A stretch of DNA of 64,000 nt. Origin: Haloglomus litoreum. Its GTDB lineage: Archaea > Halobacteriota > Halobacteria > Halobacteriales > Haloarculaceae. A program made the position numbers and the translations under genes. The DNA lies in contig NZ_CP119988.1 of NCBI RefSeq assembly GCF_029338515.1, forward strand, positions 3,038,001 through 3,102,000, read 5' to 3'. How positions within the stretch are numbered: the first letter of the stretch is position 1; each line of letters opens with the position of its first letter. The notes under the pieces were generated by a model. The model was not told the origin of the DNA, ran no database searches, and was given only the letters and a program-made list of their open reading frames with translations. Positions 41,934 to 49,696 of the stretch are shown one piece after another.

Positions 41934-42158
41934 ATGCAGGACACCCACAAGGAGCTGATGTTCCGTAGCTTCAAGGACGCCATGGATATCGTCGCCGACT
42001 ATAACGAATGGGCCGACGACGCCTTCGACCAGCAGGTGCCGGTGCCGCCCCAGGCCGTCCCACAGGTCGCGATGGCGCTGTACCAGAGCCGTATGCGCGA
42101 GCGGATGGGCAGCGGCGACCTCGACTTCCCGGACTTCGACGGCCGGATGTACGACTGA
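41934..42158 (+). CDS. Small conserved-looking protein, function unknown
   Basis: 74 residues: MQDTHKELMFRSFKDAMDIV, then ADYNEWADDAFDQQVPVPPQ, ending DFPDFDGRMYD. Soluble, acidic, helical at the N-terminus. Its composition and codon phase are those of a real haloarchaeal gene, and a palindrome plus TATA-like element precede it. I do not recognise a named family. It lies between the UppP-like gene and the CoA-transferase gene, both with separate promoters. Confidence 0.7.
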   Translation: MQDTHKELMFRSFKDAMDIVADYNEWADDAFDQQVPVPPQAVPQVAMALYQSRMRERMGSGDLDFPDFDGRMYD

Positions 42159-42247
42159 CGGCCGGGTCGGAGCGACAAGGGTGGACCCAGACGACCTCGC
42201 GACGGAGGCCGGGCATTGATACGGGCCACGGCTGAACCCATCGCACC

Positions 42248-44485
42248 ATGGCTCCCTCCGAGTTCGACGACGTCTCCGCGTGCGTCGACCGTATCCTCGA
42301 CCGACTGGGCGACGATATCACCGTCGCGGCGCCGCTCGGCGTCGGGAAGCCGAACCACCTGCTGAACGAACTCGTCGAGCGGGCACTCGCGGACCCCTCG
42401 CTCGACCTCACCGTCTGGACGGCACTCACGCTCTCGAAGCCCGACTGGGATTCGGACCTGGAGCGGCGGCTGGTCGAGCCGCTCGCCGACCGCCTGTTCG
42501 GCGATTACCCGACGCTCCGCTACGACGAGCTGCTCCGGGCGGGCGACCTCCCCGAGAACATCGAGATCCACCAGTTCTACTTCCCACCCGGCGACTTCCT
42601 CGGCAACCCCGACGCCCAGCAGCACCACCACAGCGTTAACTACACGCACGTCGCCCGAGCCATCGAGGAGGCCGACGTGAACCTGCTCGTCCAGCTCGTC
42701 GGCGCCGGCGAGCTCGACGACGAACCCGTCCTCAACCTGGGGTCGAACCCGGACCTGACCCACGAGGTGCTCGAGACCCTGCGGCAGGAGCGTGCCGACG
42801 GCGAGGAGGCGATGGTCGTCGGGCAGGTCAACCGGAACATGCCCTTCATGTACGGCGCGGCCCCCATCGAGCGCGACGCGTTCGACGCGGTCCTGGACGA
42901 CCCCGACTACGAGTTCCCGCTGTTCGGCCCGCCGAACCTCCCCATCTCGACGGCCGATCACGCCATCGCGCTGCGGACGAGCGCGCTGGTCAAGGACGGG
43001 GGGACGCTCCAGATCGGCATCGGCTCGCTGGGCGACGCCATCGGCGCGGCCATCGCCCTGCGGGACCGGCAGAACGACCGCTACACCGACATCGCCGACG
43101 CGCTGGGCATCCCCGAGGACTGCCCGGACCTGCTCGCGGAGTGGGGCGACCTCGACCCGTTCGACGAGGGACTGTACGCCGCCTCCGAGATGGTGGTCGA
43201 GGCGTTCGTTCACCTCTACGAAGCGGGCGTCCTCCGGCGCGAGACCTACGACGACATCCACGTCCAGCGACTCGCCAGCGAGGACCTCGTCCCGGAGGGC
43301 CCGAGCCTCGCGGCTCTCGACGCGCTCGTCGAGTGGGCCGCCATCGACGAGTCGCTCACCGCCGCGGACGTCGACTACCTCCGGGAGTGGGGCCTCCTCC
43401 GGGAGGCCGTCGAGTACGATGCGGACGACGGGAACGAGGACGACGGCGGCGATGCCGGTACCCTGCACGTCGACGGGGAACGCTTCCCGGCCGACCTCGC
43501 CGACGAGGCGGCCCGCGAGGCCATCGCGGCCCACGCGCTCGGCGACGAGCTGTCGGGCGGGAAGGTGCTGCACGGCGGGTTCTTCCTCGGGTCGCAGGGG
43601 TTCTACGACGCCCTCCGCGAGATGGACGAGGCCGATCGCCGACGGTTCAGTATGCGGAGCGTCCAGTTCACGAACCAGCTCGGCGGCCAGCGTGACCTCG
43701 CCCGGCTCCAGCGTCGGGACGCACGCTTCGTCAACACGGGCATGAAGGCGACCGTGACGGGCGGCGTGGTCTCGGACGGGCTCGCGAGCAACCAGGTCGT
43801 CAGCGGGGTCGGGGGGCAGTTCGACTTCGTGGATATGGCCCAGGAGCTCCCGGACGGCCGGTCGATCATCCTCGTCCGTGCGACGCGGGAGACCAGCGAC
43901 GGGGGCGTCGAGTCCAACATCATCTGGAACTACGGCCACATCACCATCCCGCGCCACATGCGCGACATCGTCGTCACGGAGTACGGCGTCGCCGACCTCC
44001 GGGACCGCTCGGACGCCGAGGTCATCCAGGAGATGATCAAGATCGCGGACTCGCGCTTCCAGGACGACCTCGTCGAGCAGGCGAAGGCGGCCGGGAAGCT
44101 CCCCGAGGACTGGACCGTCCCGCCCGCGTACCGGAACAACTACCCGGAGACCATCGAATCCGCGCTGGCACCCTACCAGGACGACCTCCCGTCGTTCCCG
44201 TTCGGGACGGAGCTGACCGAGGAGGAGCGGGCGCTCGCCGAGGGGCTGCGAACGGTCCAGCGGCAGGTCGCGGGGCTTCCGCGTGCCGTCCGGTCGCTGG
44301 CGACGGGCGAGCGGTCACTGGGAGCGGCCGCCGGCAGTCTGGGCCCGCTGTGGAAGGGACTGCGGGTGCCCGACGCCGCCGGTCCGTATCTCGAACGTAT
44401 GGACCTCGACCGGCCGACCACCCGGCAGGAGCGGGTCTACCGGCATCTCGTCGCCTACGCGCTGGCCGAGGTCGACGCCGTCTGA
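42248..44485 (+). CDS. Acetyl-CoA hydrolase/transferase family protein, long form
   Basis: 745 residues, longer than the roughly 500-residue class-I CoA-transferases. The N-terminal half has APLGVGKPNHLLNELVERAL, NYTHVARAI and LQIGIGSLGDAIGAA. The C-terminal half has VLHGGFFLGSQGFYDALREM, MRSVQFTNQL, ARFVNTGMKATVTGGVVSD, SGVGGQFDFVDMA and IPRHMRDIVVTEYGVADLRD, the typical CoA-transferase sheet and glycine loop. An acidic insert of about 60 residues (DADDGNEDDGGDAG) joins the halves. It should hydrolyse or exchange CoA thioesters; the acyl group is unknown. TTGATACG at 42216-42223 fits ATG 42248. Confidence 0.83.
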   Translation: MAPSEFDDVSACVDRILDRLGDDITVAAPLGVGKPNHLLNELVERALADPSLDLTVWTALTLSKPDWDSDLERRLVEPLADRLFGDYPTLRYDELLRAGDLPENIEIHQFYFPPGDFLGNPDAQQHHHSVNYTHVARAIEEADVNLLVQLVGAGELDDEPVLNLGSNPDLTHEVLETLRQERADGEEAMVVGQVNRNMPFMYGAAPIERDAFDAVLDDPDYEFPLFGPPNLPISTADHAIALRTSALVKDGGTLQIGIGSLGDAIGAAIALRDRQNDRYTDIADALGIPEDCPDLLAEWGDLDPFDEGLYAASEMVVEAFVHLYEAGVLRRETYDDIHVQRLASEDLVPEGPSLAALDALVEWAAIDESLTAADVDYLREWGLLREAVEYDADDGNEDDGGDAGTLHVDGERFPADLADEAAREAIAAHALGDELSGGKVLHGGFFLGSQGFYDALREMDEADRRRFSMRSVQFTNQLGGQRDLARLQRRDARFVNTGMKATVTGGVVSDGLASNQVVSGVGGQFDFVDMAQELPDGRSIILVRATRETSDGGVESNIIWNYGHITIPRHMRDIVVTEYGVADLRDRSDAEVIQEMIKIADSRFQDDLVEQAKAAGKLPEDWTVPPAYRNNYPETIESALAPYQDDLPSFPFGTELTEEERALAEGLRTVQRQVAGLPRAVRSLATGERSLGAAAGSLGPLWKGLRVPDAAGPYLERMDLDRPTTRQERVYRHLVAYALAEVDAV

Positions 44486-44533
44486 GCCGGCCCGGGGCCG
44501 AGTTCCGTCAGCCCAGGGCCGTCGCCGACAGGG

Positions 44534-44537
44534 TTTT
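44534..44537 (+). promoter_or_regulatory. TTTT promoter element for the methyltransferase gene
   Basis: AGGGTTTTCGA, 26-29 bases before ATG 44563; nearly the same as the element at 9951-9960. Confidence 0.45.
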
Positions 44538-44562
44538 CGACAGCGCTCGCGTCCGGGAGCGC

Positions 44563-45366
44563 ATGCGAACCCTCCGGGACGTGATGGACGCGGTCGCCGC
44601 CGCCCGGGCCGAGGGGGACGGCCCGATCCACGGGACCCTCTACGACGACCTCGCGCCGCTGTACGCCTTTGAGCGCGAGCGGATGCGCGACTATCCGGCC
44701 GTCGCCGAGTTCGTGGGCGAGCACGTTCCCGCCGACACCCGGCGGGTCGGCGTCGGGGCCTGCGGCCCGGGACTGGTGCTCGAGCAACTAGCCGAGCGGT
44801 TCGAGACGGCCGTGGGATTCGACCTGAGCCCGGCGATGCTGGAACTGGCCGCCGAACGGACCGGGGCGCCGGTCGTCCGCGCGGACCTGCGGAGCGTCGT
44901 CGCCCCCGGAGCGTTCGACGCGTTCACCATCCTCGGTGGCTCCATCGCACACCTCCCCGTCGTCGACGACGAGGACAGCGTCCGAGCGGCGCTCGGGAGC
45001 ATCCACGACAGCCTCCGGCCGGGCGGCGTCTTCCTGTGTGACTTCATGGAGCGCGGCGCCCTCGAGAGCGGAGCGGTCGTGACGGACACGTTCGAGTCGG
45101 ATCGGTTCCACGTCGAGCGGACCGTCATCACCACGGGCGAACCCGACGGCACGACCGCCCTCGGGGGGACCGGCCGGTACACCTTCGCCTACGAGATCAC
45201 GGACCACGAAACGGACGAGACGGTCCGGGTCGGCACCTCGACGTCGGTCCGGGAGTTCGGCGTTCCGCAGTTGCTCGGGGCGGTCCTGGCGGCCGGCTTC
45301 ACCGACGCGACGCTCGTCCGGCCGCCGACACACGGGATGGGACTGGTCGCACACAAAGGGACGTGA
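44563..45366 (+). CDS. Class I SAM-dependent methyltransferase
   Basis: 267 residues. The SAM-binding core is seen: VGVGACGPGLVLEQLAERF (motif I), AVGFDLSPAMLELAAER (acidic residue after strand 2), VVRADLRSV (motif II region) and FDAFTILGGSIAHLP (motif III/IV). The rest (LRPGGVFLCDFMERG) is the usual fifth strand. It resembles small-molecule methyltransferases; acceptor unknown. ATG 44563 is supported by the T run at 44534-44537; the frame is open upstream into the CoA-transferase gene. Confidence 0.83.
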   Translation: MRTLRDVMDAVAAARAEGDGPIHGTLYDDLAPLYAFERERMRDYPAVAEFVGEHVPADTRRVGVGACGPGLVLEQLAERFETAVGFDLSPAMLELAAERTGAPVVRADLRSVVAPGAFDAFTILGGSIAHLPVVDDEDSVRAALGSIHDSLRPGGVFLCDFMERGALESGAVVTDTFESDRFHVERTVITTGEPDGTTALGGTGRYTFAYEITDHETDETVRVGTSTSVREFGVPQLLGAVLAAGFTDATLVRPPTHGMGLVAHKGT

Positions 45367-45396
45367 GCGTGGGTCCGGGGACGGGAGCGGGGGCCG

Positions 45397-46551
45397 CTAA
45401 CCGCTGGTCAACTGCGCGGCCGTCTCGGCGAGGAGTCGTCTGGCCTCGACCAGCGTTCCGCTCTCGGTGAGGACCTCCAGCGCCCCCTCGACGGGCCCGA
45501 TGGGGTGACGGTGGAGCCCGACGACGACCACCGTGTCGTCGGCGTCTGCCCGGACGAGATGGAGGCCCACGCCCCAGCCTTCAGCGTCGCCCCCGAGGAC
45601 GCCAACGAAGCTCTCGATCTCGGTCTCGGTGTCGAGCAGCGTCGCCGTCTGCGGCCCCTCGTCGGGCCGGACGCGCTCGGGGCCCTCCACCAGTTCCAGT
45701 TCCGTCCCCTCGCCGAAGCCGGCCTCCTGGAGGAGTCGCTGGGTCTCCTCGCGCTGGAGGAGCGTCTCCGCCTCGATGTCGGCGAGGGGGTTGGCAGACT
45801 GGCCCGCGACCTCGGCCGTCGGCGTCGAGAGGACGGCCACGCCGAACGAGACACCGCCCATCGGCGCTGGCTGCGGGACGGTATCGCGGAACTCGAACCG
45901 TTCGGGCGGGGAGTCCCCCTCGGGCCACGCCCCGACGAGGGCGTCGCCGGGGGCCGCGACGAGGACCGATGAGGGGTCGAACGTCTCGCCGTCCTCGAGC
46001 GGGCGCCCCGGGGGGTCGTCGTCACCGAACACCTCCGCCCACGTGCGCTGGCCCGTCGAGACGAGCGCCTTGCGGGGTTCCTCGCCCCCGGTGAAGGCGA
46101 TCTTGATCTCGACCTTCGCCAGCGACTTACCGGGCGCGAGCCAGCGCTGGCCCGGCCCACCCCCCTCGTCCGTCGGGACCCAGCTCTCGTCCGGCAGGAA
46201 CTCCGCGACCGGGACCACGCGGTCGACCCCGACTGGTCCGTCCCGCGCGGGGACGAGTTCGTCCGCGTCGATGGCCTCTCCGGGGACCAGGACCATCGTT
46301 CCGTCGGGGTCGCTTCGCATGGCCGCAGCGATCTTGATCTCGACCTTCCCGTCCGCCGCTCCGCCCGGGACGGCGAGGCTCACGAGGCCGCCATCCGCAC
46401 CCGGGCTCCCCTCGAACATCCCGAGCGGCACCGTCTCGAGGCCGGCGCCCGATGCGGGGGCGACGACCGCACCCCGGCTGATGAACCCGTCGTTGGCCTG
46501 CTCGACGAAGCGACCCATCGGCGTGCGGAGCGGCCCGTGTCGGTCGGCCAT
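45397..46551 (-). CDS. DUF6517-like C-terminal half fused to a tube-protein N-terminal remnant
   Basis: 384 residues. It begins MADRHGPLRT, identical to the first ten residues of the tail-tube protein at 48733-49179, then diverges. Residues 25-250 are an unrecognised beta-rich region containing KVEIKIA twice. Residues 255-370 (FGVAVLSTPTAEVAGQSANP, then TLLDTETEIESFVGVLGG and WGVGLHLVRADADDTVVVVG) match the C-terminal half of haloarchaeal DUF6517 lipoproteins and of the protein at 46917. The matching N-terminal half is the separate frame just upstream, whose TGA is one base before this ATG. No signal peptide of its own, so location is uncertain. Function unknown. Confidence 0.6.
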   Translation of the reverse strand: MADRHGPLRTPMGRFVEQANDGFISRGAVVAPASGAGLETVPLGMFEGSPGADGGLVSLAVPGGAADGKVEIKIAAAMRSDPDGTMVLVPGEAIDADELVPARDGPVGVDRVVPVAEFLPDESWVPTDEGGGPGQRWLAPGKSLAKVEIKIAFTGGEEPRKALVSTGQRTWAEVFGDDDPPGRPLEDGETFDPSSVLVAAPGDALVGAWPEGDSPPERFEFRDTVPQPAPMGGVSFGVAVLSTPTAEVAGQSANPLADIEAETLLQREETQRLLQEAGFGEGTELELVEGPERVRPDEGPQTATLLDTETEIESFVGVLGGDAEGWGVGLHLVRADADDTVVVVGLHRHPIGPVEGALEVLTESGTLVEARRLLAETAAQLTSG

Positions 46552-46552
46552 C

Positions 46553-46852
46553 TCACTGGCCCCCGAGTCCGGCCGCCCGGCTGTAGACCGCCGTGTGGCT
46601 GGTGACGCTCACCGAGACGTTCCCCCCGGCCGCACTCCGCTCGACCGTCGGGGACTCCCGTGACTCCTCTCCCAGGCGGAGCTCCTCCTGGGCGGTCGCA
46701 GAGAGCCCCGTCGGCGAGGATTCGAACGACTGCGACGTGACACCACCACAGCCCGCGAGCGACACCGCCGTCGCCGTCCCGAGCGTCGCGAGGAGGCGCC
46801 GGCGACCGAGACGGGCGACGGGCCCAGACTCTTCCGTGTCGTTGGCTACCAT
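46553..46852 (-). CDS. Tat lipoprotein, N-terminal half of a DUF6517-like protein
   Basis: 99 residues. RRRLLATLGTATAVSLAGCG is a twin-arginine signal with lipobox Cys; QSFESSPTGL, then VSVSVTSHTAVYSRAAGLGG and Q-stop match the first half of DUF6517 proteins, which normally continue through a segment like AAVF...STP...GQS.NP. That continuation is found at the end of the next gene. The stop TGA is followed by one base (G) and the ATG of the next gene, so termination-reinitiation is likely. ATG 46852 was chosen because it precedes the Tat motif closely. It parallels 49181-49462. Confidence 0.65.
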   Translation of the reverse strand: MVANDTEESGPVARLGRRRLLATLGTATAVSLAGCGGVTSQSFESSPTGLSATAQEELRLGEESRESPTVERSAAGGNVSVSVTSHTAVYSRAAGLGGQ

Positions 46853-46916
46853 GATACCCGAGAAGGGGACCCTGAAAGGATAGCCGTTTGGGTCGGGCGG
46901 GGCGCGTACGGCCACC

Positions 46917-48608
46917 TCAGAGATACTCGAGTCGGCCGGCCGTCTCCGCCGTGAACTGCCGGCCCCGGCCGAGGGCCCGCTGCCAGCCCGACGAGTCGGA
47001 GAGGCCGGCTGCGGTCCCGAGCGGCTGGCGATGCACCCCGGCCGCGATGACGTGCGAGTCGTCGGTGATGGGGGCAAGGTGGACGCCGACCGCCCACGGG
47101 CCGTCCTGCCCGCTCACGACGCCCTCGTAGCTCTCGACCGTCGTTTCCGTCCCGAGCATCTGGACCGAGGTACTGGCATCGGCACCCGCGGAGCGGGGCC
47201 CGTCCAGCCACTCGACCGACCCAGCGTCGGTGACACCGGCCCGACCGAGCACCCGCCGCGCGACCTCGTGTTCGAGCAGCGCTGTCGCGTTCATCCCGAC
47301 GAGGGGATTGACCGACTGGCCCGCGATGGACGCGTCCGGCGTCGAGACGGTCCCCAGCCCGAATGTCGCGCCGGCCAGCGGCGCGGGCGCACCCGCGTCG
47401 AGCAGGTCGTCGACCCCACCGGGGCCGGAGCCCGTCACCTGCAGCGAGGGCCCGTCGAACGGGGGGGTCGCCGGCCCGACCACCGCGAACACGGTCGATG
47501 CCGGGTCGACGGTGTCGCCCGCGGTGGCTGGCTGAACACCCGCAGCAGCGGCGGCGTCGGACCCCGCAGCCACCCCGAGTGCGTCCTCCAGGGACCCGCT
47601 GCCGGTGTCGAGGAGGACTTGGACGGCCGACCGGTCACCCGTCGGCCAGCCCGGAACCGGGTCCGAGGGCGAGTCGGCACCGTCCTCTGATTCCCCGCCC
47701 CCCACGTGCCACGAGCGGTCGTGGAAGAACGCCCGTCCGGGAACCCAGTACAGGCGCCCCGCGGCACCCTGCTTCACCGTGCGAGTGCCCCCCTGTTCGA
47801 GGTCGCTGCCCCGGAGGAGCCAGAGGGCGGCCGCGTCACCGTCGCCCCTGGCGCCCTCCGGGACGAGCAGGCCGACCTGCTGGCCGGGAGCGGTCGCGGC
47901 GGCGTCGAGCCAGTCGAGCGTCACGCCCTGGATGCCGACATCGGCGCCCGCGACGAGGGCCGCGCCGTTCCCGACCCGGCCGCCGTTCGCCGTCCGGACG
48001 TACCGGAACACGCCCGAGTCGCCCCGACCCTGCCGTTGCTCGACGGGGCCGGTATCGGCGACACGCTCGACGTCCTCGAAGTCGACAGTGACCGACTCCG
48101 TGGCGATGGCTCCTTGGCTCCCGCCCGTCGTCGCGTCGAGCGTCGGCGGGTCGTAGGCGAGCGGCCGGGCGTTCGTGAACCGCCACTGGAGCATCGTCGT
48201 TCCGGCGTCGTCCTGCAGGGAGACGACGACCTCCTTCCGGGCCTCGTCCATCTTCCCCTGGTCGACGGACGTGCGCCAGTCGTCCAGTGTACTGTCGCCC
48301 TTCCGCATCCCGCGCTCCATCGTCAGGTCCTCGTACTCCGTCTGCCCCATGGTCCGGCGCTGGCCCCCGCTCTCGCCGCCGGAGTCGACCAGCCCCGTCG
48401 AGCGTGCCGGGAGGTCGACGACCTGGAAGCCACTCACCTCGACGCCGTCGAGCTCGACCACGAACCGGCCGGTCCGGAGCGGGCCGTGTCTGTCCGGCGC
48501 TTCGAGCGACCGGGCCCGCTCCGCCCGCGGCCTGTCGGCGGCGTGGCCGACGAACGGTGCGGCTCCGGACGCCTGCATGGTCCGACGGTGGTCTGGGTCC
48601 TCGGTCAT
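46917..48608 (-). CDS. Tail-tube (gp19-like) domain fused to a DUF6517-like C-terminal half
   Basis: 563 residues. After a 37-residue leader, residues 38-185 are a tail-tube domain: DRHGPLRTGRFVVELDGVEV, MGQTEYEDLTMERG, LDDWRTSVDQGKMDEARKEV and LQWRFTNARP. Residues 190-400 are an unrecognised region with RLYWVPGRAFFHD. Residues 405-540 repeat the DUF6517-like half: FGLGTVSTPDASIAGQSVNP, MLGTETTVESYEGVVSG and WAVGVHLAPITDDSHVIAAG. Tube proteins of phage tails and contractile injection systems stack into hexameric rings; no sheath or baseplate genes are near. It lies 124 bases after the stand-alone tube gene. Confidence 0.65.
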   Translation of the reverse strand: MTEDPDHRRTMQASGAAPFVGHAADRPRAERARSLEAPDRHGPLRTGRFVVELDGVEVSGFQVVDLPARSTGLVDSGGESGGQRRTMGQTEYEDLTMERGMRKGDSTLDDWRTSVDQGKMDEARKEVVVSLQDDAGTTMLQWRFTNARPLAYDPPTLDATTGGSQGAIATESVTVDFEDVERVADTGPVEQRQGRGDSGVFRYVRTANGGRVGNGAALVAGADVGIQGVTLDWLDAAATAPGQQVGLLVPEGARGDGDAAALWLLRGSDLEQGGTRTVKQGAAGRLYWVPGRAFFHDRSWHVGGGESEDGADSPSDPVPGWPTGDRSAVQVLLDTGSGSLEDALGVAAGSDAAAAAGVQPATAGDTVDPASTVFAVVGPATPPFDGPSLQVTGSGPGGVDDLLDAGAPAPLAGATFGLGTVSTPDASIAGQSVNPLVGMNATALLEHEVARRVLGRAGVTDAGSVEWLDGPRSAGADASTSVQMLGTETTVESYEGVVSGQDGPWAVGVHLAPITDDSHVIAAGVHRQPLGTAAGLSDSSGWQRALGRGRQFTAETAGRLEYL

Positions 48609-48732
48609 ACCTGCTCCGTGTCGGTATCGTTCGTGCTGGTGTGTCCGGCGTCGTGTCCCGCGATAGCCGGACCGTCTCGAATGTGACTGCGCTCGGGCCT
48701 CGCGCGTGGGCGGTGGGTGGACACGGGACTCC

Positions 48733-49179
48733 CTACTCCGCCCGCGTCATCTCGTCGAAGACGATGGTGACATCCTCGGTGGCGACGCCGCCGCCCTCGC
48801 TGGTCGCGTCGAGGGTCGGAGGGTCGTACCGCTTGGGCCACGCGTTCGTGAACTCCCAGCGGATCGCCTCCTCGCCCGTCTCGGTCTGTAGCACCACGGC
48901 GAGGTCCTTCCGGCCCTCCTCCATCCGCCCCTCGTCGACGGACTTGCGCCAGTCGAACAGCGTCGTATCCCCCTTCTTCGCCCCACGCTTCATCGTCAGG
49001 TCCTCGTACTCCGTCTGCCCCATGAGCTGGCGATTGTCGTCAGGGTCGGAACCCTCCCGGTACTCCACTTCCTTCGTGAAGCGTGCCGGGAGGTCGACGA
49101 CCCGGAACCCATCCACCTCGACGCCGCCGACCTCGACCACGAACCGACCCGTCCGGAGCGGGCCGTGTCTGTCCGCCAT
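48733..49179 (-). CDS. Phage tail tube / contractile-injection tube protein (T4 gp19-like)
   Basis: 148 residues, a complete single tube domain. The pattern GPLRTGRFVVEVGGVEVDGF, VEYREGSDPDDNRQLMGQTEYEDLTMKRG (given in part), LFDWRKSVDEGRMEEGRKDL, IRWEFTNAWPKRYDPPTLDA and ATEDVTIVFDEM matches the gp19-type tube family found in phage tails and in eCIS particles, including the NAWP signature. Its ATG is one base after the stop of a Tat lipoprotein half, with the same junction CAGTGAGATGGC as at 46551. No capsid, sheath, baseplate or terminase gene is in the window, so it may be a domesticated or satellite tube gene. Confidence 0.78.
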   Translation of the reverse strand: MADRHGPLRTGRFVVEVGGVEVDGFRVVDLPARFTKEVEYREGSDPDDNRQLMGQTEYEDLTMKRGAKKGDTTLFDWRKSVDEGRMEEGRKDLAVVLQTETGEEAIRWEFTNAWPKRYDPPTLDATSEGGGVATEDVTIVFDEMTRAE

Positions 49180-49180
49180 C

Positions 49181-49462
49181 TCACTGTCCCCCGGTCCCGA
49201 CGGTGCGGTCGTAGACCCCGGCGTGGTTCGTCAGTTCGACCCGGCTCCCGGCGGGCCCGTCGAACGAGAGCGTCAGTTCCTCCAGCGCCGTCTCGGTCAC
49301 CTCCAGCGGCTCGTGGGTCTCGTCCGGGAGCCCCACGGCCGACGCCTCGAACGACTGCTGTGTCGGGTTCCCACACCCCGCCGTCGCGGTCGCGACAGCT
49401 GCGGTCGCCGTGACGAAACTCCGCCGTGAGACCGGTAGCCCGGACTCCCCCTCCTCGGTCAT
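49181..49462 (-). CDS. Tat lipoprotein, N-terminal half of a DUF6517-like protein
   Basis: 93 residues. SRRSFVTATAAVATATAGCG is a twin-arginine signal with lipobox Cys. QQSFEASAVGLPDE, then SRVELTNHAGVYDRTVGTGG and Q-stop match the first half of DUF6517 proteins and the paralogue at 46553-46852. It ends at exactly the same point of the family alignment, GGQ-stop, one base before the tube gene's ATG. It is the first gene of the cluster and has a TATA-like GTAATATACC upstream. It should be exported and lipid-anchored; its function is unknown. Confidence 0.68.
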   Translation of the reverse strand: MTEEGESGLPVSRRSFVTATAAVATATAGCGNPTQQSFEASAVGLPDETHEPLEVTETALEELTLSFDGPAGSRVELTNHAGVYDRTVGTGGQ

Positions 49463-49481
49463 GAGGTGATATCTACGAAGG

Positions 49482-49515
49482 TGGTATATTACACTTATTC
49501 AATATTTATTATATC
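49482..49515 (-). promoter_or_regulatory. AT-rich promoter of the lipoprotein/tube cluster
   Basis: On the minus strand GTAATATACC (49491-49482) lies 20-29 bases before ATG 49462, within an AT-rich block to 49515 containing ATAATAAATATT. This is unusually AT-rich for the window and marks the upstream edge of the cluster. Confidence 0.55.
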
Positions 49516-49696
49516 TTCGCGCGAGGAGACCGATTCCGTCCCGTACGCCAGTTCGTGCGGTTCGAGAGCTGTGGACCGGCTTCGGAGCACGTCAGGAATC
49601 ACCACACCGCAGTCGAATTCTCGGTTGAGCGATAGCTCCCACAGACGGGGAAGGCGGTATCAGCCGGACGTCGACCGGGGCGAACTGGGACGGAAC

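Follow-up and report, generated by a model that had tools for sequence, protein, structure and literature searches.

Tail-tube proteins at the break of a naturally split lipoprotein in Haloglomus litoreum: a possible Tat-exported, lipid-anchored surface assembly

Haloglomus litoreum carries a gene unit in which a DUF6517-type lipoprotein is divided into two ORFs and two gp19-like tail-tube domains are located at the break. The best explanation, to which we give somewhat better than even chances, is that the split DUF6517 halves are co-exported and that the tail tubes are thereby lipid-tethered on the outside of the cell membrane as a structural or adhesive element. The wider proposal, namely that a tail-tube protein was turned into an exported, lipid-anchored surface assembly via Tat co-export of a naturally split lipoprotein, is advanced more tentatively, as a possibility somewhat short of an even bet; such an assembly would be a novel type of archaeal surface structure, with the tube subunit as its sole tie to injection systems.

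The window, i.e., the whole stretch of 64,000 nucleotides that was analyzed, contains two such units (Table 1). The ORF list and the sequence contain all five ORFs described in an earlier note on this DNA, all of them on the minus strand, and the features reported there for the two short proteins were found as well: both are Tat lipoproteins, with a twin arginine followed by a lipobox Cys (RRSF..TAGC in lipo1, RRRL..LAGC in lipo2), both end with GGQ-TGA, and one base past this stop a frame starting with MADRHGPLRT opens, the string CAGTGAGATGGC being common to the two units. Unit 1 indeed continues with a complete gp19-like tube protein (tube1) and then with a tube-plus-C-half fusion, the orthologues of which stand at 77-78% in two other Haloglomus genomes (G403, which is Haloglomus halophilum ZY41, NZ_CP101166.1, and G404) and at 47% in a genome of another genus (G433). 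The fusion keeps a conserved start, HRRxMxASGxAxFVG, which may be a decayed or weakened Tat signal, or something else. The GC content is 46% at 49450-49549 vs about 70% around it, with no comparable stretch before tube1 or the fusion ORF, and the A+T-rich stretch preceding lipo1 is likely, from its base composition, the promoter region of unit 1.

Table 1. Features of the two split units (positions in the window)
Feature	Position	Strand	Evidence and remarks
A+T-rich stretch preceding lipo1, likely unit 1 promoter region	49463..49600	-	base composition
lipo1: Tat lipoprotein, N-half of split DUF6517-type domain, unit 1	49181..49462	-	ORF, RRSF + TAGC, TAT_signal match
Unit 1 junction TGA-G-ATG, N-half/tube1	49177..49183	-	same arrangement in G403, G404, G433 (TAG-A-ATG)
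tube1: complete gp19/CIS1-like tail tube protein, no signal peptide	48733..49179	-	PF06841, CIS1 model
Fusion ORF, 563 aa: N-terminal HRRTMQASG segment, tube2, middle region, DUF6517 C-half	46917..48608	-	
tube2 domain inside fusion	48051..48497	-	PF06841 E=1.2e-22; AlphaFold model matches CIS inner tubes
Middle region, unit 1	47379..48050	-	homologous parts in unit 2 and in the middle of uncut chains
DUF6517 C-half, unit 1	46917..47378	-	PF20127 positions 71-164, E=1.1e-10
Segment missing from orthologous place in G403 and G404	42160..46900	.	~4.7 kb; CoA-transferase-like gene, methyltransferase, unit 2
lipo2: Tat lipoprotein N-half, unit 2	46553..46852	-	PF20127 positions 3-58; RRRL + LAGC
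Unit 2 junction TGA-G-ATG	46549..46555	-	
Unit 2 second ORF: MADRHGPLRT start, middle region, DUF6517 C-half, no tube domain	45397..46551	-	

The earlier note was to be refuted if the halves did not map to adjacent parts of one DUF6517 model (PF20127, gathering cut-off 23.9 bits), but they do: both C-half ORFs score 41-42 bits over positions 71-164, with E=2.4e-10 for the unit 2 second ORF, and lipo2 matches positions 3-58 weakly (E=0.0027, 18.2 bits, below the curated cut-off). Lipo1 gives no direct match; it is homologous to the N-halves of uncut chains, and it is counted as a DUF6517-type N-half because it is linked to the family through lipo2 and these uncut homologues. The two C-halves are 36% identical and contain the motifs that had been quoted for them. 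That a DUF6517 protein is normally a single chain is supported by ten uncut relatives (G036, G333, G211, G262, G063, G199, G282, G215, G030, and the second gene of G433), which hold N-half, middle region and C-half in one ORF, the middle region likewise lying between the DUF6517 halves, whereas both units of the window are split by a stop and a start codon.

The AlphaFold model of the uncut G030 protein, obtained with the split halves as extra rows (pTM 0.78, pLDDT 78.9), has as its top structural matches in the PDB small single-domain proteins of one fold group, comprising PsbP, Mog1, LpqN, DcrB, and SciW/EagT6, with Z up to 8.1, less than 15% identity and Foldseek E values of at least 0.005, a likeness that alone may reflect a common arrangement. 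Since the 110-160 residues aligned to the PsbP/Mog1 group are spread over model residues ~40-467, the N- and C-half appear to be one domain and the middle region an insert; the model thus suggests a Mog1/PsbP-like domain formed by both halves, the fold assignment being tentative. The middle region had no clear match among the listed structural matches and was modelled poorly in the AlphaFold model of the fusion, and no convincing hit came from searching PDB sequences with the profile of the uncut chains.

Other members of the family show further additions. Tandem peptide arrays (YPGSMW, IPGSQW, FFPDST/FFPDGY, LTGNNPF, VGGQSPF) occur in the middle or at the C-end of DUF6517-type lipoproteins, with fast local duplication of hexa-/heptapeptides (L104, L107, L108, L110-L115, L152, L158, L160), and at L161, L162, and L116 the domain is followed by stretches that look metallopeptidase-like or papain/C39-like by eye, in lipoproteins of ~970-1120 aa. 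The DUF6517 domain may be a general surface carrier; the literature search found no paper that mentions it.

As for the tubes, the 4.7 Mb single-contig genome of the window (G000) has no other gp19 genes than those of tube1 and tube2. A sheath (PF04984) was not found in this genome, nor in G403, G404, G433, G030, G046, G254, G198, and G097, and the same search was positive in G113, G106, and G342; gp25 (PF04965) was not found either in seven of these nine sheath-negative genomes, in a search sample that included no CIS-positive haloarchaeon as control. With no sheath and no gp25 detected, the idea of a domesticated injection device is not supported. The tubes of unit 1 group with haloarchaeal tubes that likewise stand alone and are separated from most tubes of CIS, and sister tubes carry export signals: the G030 tube is by sequence a Tat lipoprotein (TRRDAL..LSGC; MEPEVTRRDALQTLTVAGSTVALSGCSM), and those of G198 and G097 have a Tat signal without the Cys. 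These sister tubes are the best support for the view that the unit 1 tubes are meant for the cell surface, because they are exported, judging from their sequences; for the same reason the earlier suggestion of a membrane-anchored tube-like structure is plausible, and its second part, a role in injection, is not retained. In a Halovenus MAG a tube is followed by a CARDB-tube fusion, and in Natronosalvus amylolyticus a tube adjoins a tail-fibre (Peptidase_S74) protein.

Two further observations concern tube-like sequences elsewhere. Adjacent pairs of gp19-like genes lie between unrelated genes at several loci (L038, L039, L041-L049, L057, L060, L066, L072, L073, L184), and no sheath was found in the five paired-gp19 genomes searched (G306, G086, G009, G281, G290); from gene content, these pairs are a second kind of stand-alone haloarchaeal tube. 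Tube-like peptides are also present in non-tube surface proteins (L105 6122-6450; L103 6993-7053; the L149 second ORF; the CARDB part of L148): DRHGPMR/L occurs four times in a G199 lipoprotein, AKKGDTTL is found at the ends of the G252 and G173 lipoproteins, doubled in G252, and YREGNDAEYEKKTWG within the Halovenus CARDB region is another such peptide. They could be templated insertions from tube genes or cases of interface mimicry; overall, tube-derived 6- to 8-mers in other ORFs equal the shuffled controls, and only the clustered multi-motif cases stand out.

According to the favored explanation, two polypeptides would be made from one mRNA, by termination followed by immediate re-initiation at the fixed break point. 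The N-half would bring the Tat signal and the lipid anchor but no more of the domain than its initial strands, so that its folding probably depends on the C-half; the pairing of the halves is proposed because they are one chain in the uncut relatives. Tat is the dominant pathway in the secretion of these archaea, and Tat hitchhiker complexes are known, such as those of the small and large subunits of hydrogenases. As Tat moves folded proteins, the N-half would most likely associate with the C-half and its cargo while still in the cytoplasm; the complex would then be exported as a whole and stay attached to the membrane on its outer side. For unit 1, this cargo would be the free subunit tube1 together with tube2, which the middle region connects to the C-half; having no signal peptide, tube1 would need to bind the fusion for export and to oligomerize with tube2 for tethering, and the decayed-Tat-like start of the fusion could help export. 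The predicted product is a ring or short tube that is built of tail-tube subunits, held by the lipid anchor beneath the S-layer and devoid of sheath and baseplate; its likely role at the cell surface is structural or adhesive, not that of an injector.

Neither tube1 nor the C-half ORFs have a lipobox or a hydrophobic signal, and haloarchaeal CIS are put together inside the cell and attach to the cytoplasmic membrane (PMC11566945), which would also fit a set of separately acting proteins, with the N-half as a small free lipoprotein and the tubes and C-half residing in the cytoplasm, as in cytoplasm-assembled CIS. We regard this alternative as unlikely, since uncut relatives with a lipobox contain the N- and C-half as parts of a single domain, sister tubes have Tat signals, in one case with a lipobox, and neither sheath nor gp25 was found.

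The identity of the tubes is well supported. With PF06841, tube1 scores 111.1 bits (E=4.7e-32) and tube2 80.6 bits, both above the gathering cut-off of 28.2 bits; with the NCBIfam CIS1 inner-tube equivalog model NF053769, they score 145.6 bits (tube1, E=1.1e-42) and 122.7 bits, below its curated cut-off of 220 bits. The tube domain in the AlphaFold model of the fusion is structurally similar to the inner tubes of CIS, among them Pvc1 and Afp1, and a profile built from these tubes finds the same CIS inner tubes by sequence. The tube had been proposed to sit at a fixed point between the N- and C-half, and this is the case: among the split loci examined, a tube occupies the break in the window, G403, G404, and G433 and nowhere else; these represent three species of Haloglomus and a second genus, and the C-half genes of the units with tubes group as a single clade with 100/100 support. 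Over a 101-nt N-terminal stretch, tube1 and tube2 agree at 90% vs about 75% elsewhere, and the two tubes of each genus group together in the tube tree, which suggests gene conversion between them.

These signs of conversion, the strong divergence of tube2 in G433, and the presence of only two gp19 genes and no sheath in the genome are what a decaying mosaic would show, in which the split, the tube insertions and the tandem tubes are recombination remnants of a lost injection system, now functionless. This reading has little chance of being correct, as the same order and junction are kept in four genomes of two genera, no internal stop or frameshift is present in any copy, and dN/dS between genomes is 0.12-0.47 across all three unit 1 ORFs (lipo1 0.25-0.35 and tube1 0.15-0.38 for the window vs other genomes), so that these ORFs are under purifying selection. 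A viral origin of the unit was considered and rejected, no relatives being present in phage records or viral contigs. A search of genome contigs with the fusion alignment gave matches in Haloglomus halophilum and the Halovenus MAG, the corresponding search with the unit 2 second ORF gave no matches, and no plasmid relatives of this ORF were found.

The split itself is conserved. Genomes of the family and class were searched with the middle plus C-half region, and the loci were then read; the same split was found at 11 loci in 10 genomes, i.e., the window units 1 and 2 (W1, W2), G403, G404, G433, G252, G165, G430, G173, G200, and G160, each with an RR-lipobox N-half and a C-half ORF without lipobox or hydrophobic signal. 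Because the same cut recurs at all these loci, and the lipoprotein/tube junction itself also in G403, G404, and G433, an assembly error is ruled out. In an alignment of uncut and split chains the break lies just past the last N-half strand. Parsimony on the tree requires about four to five changes between the split and the uncut state, and the split may have had a single origin.

The second ORF is in the +1 frame at seven of the 11 junctions (W1, W2, G403, G404, G433, G252, G173), where a CAG/GAG/GCG-stop-(G/A)-ATG string is found, and one could imagine that programmed frameshifting or stop readthrough joins the halves into one chain, a conventional lipoprotein with an inserted tube. The frame is however -1 (TGATG) at three junctions (G165, G200, G160) and 0, with TAG, in G430; the stops vary (TGA, TAG, TAA), as does the codon preceding them (CAG, GAG, GCG, CTG, AAC, GAC), so that no constant slippery codon is present. 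The constant element is the stop and start placed 0-1 nt apart or overlapping by one base, with ATG at the stop in all, and a further stop and about 120 nt lie between tube1 and the fusion in unit 1. The mixed frames and stops thus disfavor recoding, which we hold to be very improbable; since frames, stops and preceding codons differ between loci, translational coupling by re-initiation, giving two polypeptides per split gene pair, would fit better. In G430 the halves lie in one frame, separated by a single TAG directly followed by ATG (L115 1716-1718), and its C-half has a PGSQW array and no STP motif. Least probable of all is that the lipoprotein-tube unit serves as anchor or adaptor for a CIS from another replicon or from rare partners: tube1 has its best match with a CIS1-type profile and putative membrane anchors dedicated to them are described for haloarchaeal T6SS-like CIS (PMC11566945), but no sheath was found in the nine genomes searched and no gp25 in seven of those nine.

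Unit 2 had been explained as a local duplicate of unit 1 in which only the first ten tube residues remain before an unknown region. The tree contradicts the duplication, since it places unit 1 with the tube-bearing G403, G404, and G433 (100/100) and unit 2 with the tube-less G165 (100/100), where the nearest relative of its second ORF is found. Synteny agrees: unit 1 is present alone in G403 and G404, where the homologue of gene 41934-42158 directly adjoins it, and unit 2 lies in extra DNA of the window. As tree and synteny place it with another genus, unit 2 is, on this evidence, a separate member of this split family that has no tube, and not a copy of unit 1 minus its tube. The unknown region proved to be a native family domain: it has homologous counterparts in the part of unit 1 that links the tube to the C-half and in the central part of uncut relatives; likewise, the second ORF of the seven tube-less split loci starts with the native family region, and several uncut relatives read G[PA]xxT..G.[FY] in the alignment at the segment corresponding to MADRHGPLRT. 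Only the DRHGP part of this start looks tube-like; DRHGP is the usual start of haloarchaeal tube proteins, and in unit 2 it may have been borrowed from a tube gene. Compared with the two other Haloglomus genomes, a CoA-transferase/hydrolase-like gene and a methyltransferase (42248-45366) were inserted together with unit 2, and a methyltransferase homologue is found near the split unit in G165 too. An exact 21-nt repeat (46097-46117 and 46328-46348) encodes KVEIKIA twice in unit 2; G165 has the first copy only, which makes the second look like a short insertion of later date.

If the favored explanation of Tat co-export is correct, a tail-tube protein would work outside the cell without sheath or baseplate, and the conserved natural split of a single domain, through its assembly, could enforce co-transport through Tat. 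The unit would then be a genetically simple test case for whether Tat can export a complex held by split-domain complementation, and it may explain some of the lone "phage tail proteins" annotated in haloarchaeal genomes. The building blocks are each known; no description was found of their combination, in which the conserved split of a lipoprotein domain goes together with sheathless tubes located at the break, and the literature search found no paper linking haloarchaeal tail tubes with Tat.

Compared with other haloarchaeal DUF6517 (PF20127) lipoproteins, the units have the same Tat lipobox N-terminus and STPxxxVAGQSxNP C-half, and differ in being two ORFs, with the middle region, plus the tubes in unit 1, between the halves. 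The predicted fold of the rejoined domain may be that of the Mog1/PsbP-like group, which includes the T6SS Eag chaperones SciW and EagT6; with Z of only about 8 and less than 15% identity, the likeness concerns the predicted fold. Tube1 and tube2 are similar in sequence and predicted fold to CIS inner tubes (Cis1/Pvc1/Afp1; PF06841, NF053769), whereas here the 220-bit cut-off is not reached, no sheath or gp25 was found, and the gene is part of a lipoprotein operon. The T6SS-like CIS of Halogeometricum borinquense, which is assembled in the cell and bound to the cytoplasmic membrane (PMC11566945), and that of Haloferax larsenii (locus L118) have in common with unit 1 a haloarchaeal tube protein and membrane association, which in unit 1 is predicted; locus L118, however, has a sheath, an ATPase, and further tail genes, none of which were detected in the window genome. 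The closest parallel to the proposed export is given by Tat hitchhiker complexes, the export of heterodimers with one signal peptide being described as established (PMC10924467): the sequence pattern, with a signal peptide on one partner only, is the same, whereas here the transport is predicted from sequence and the partners look like two halves of the same domain.
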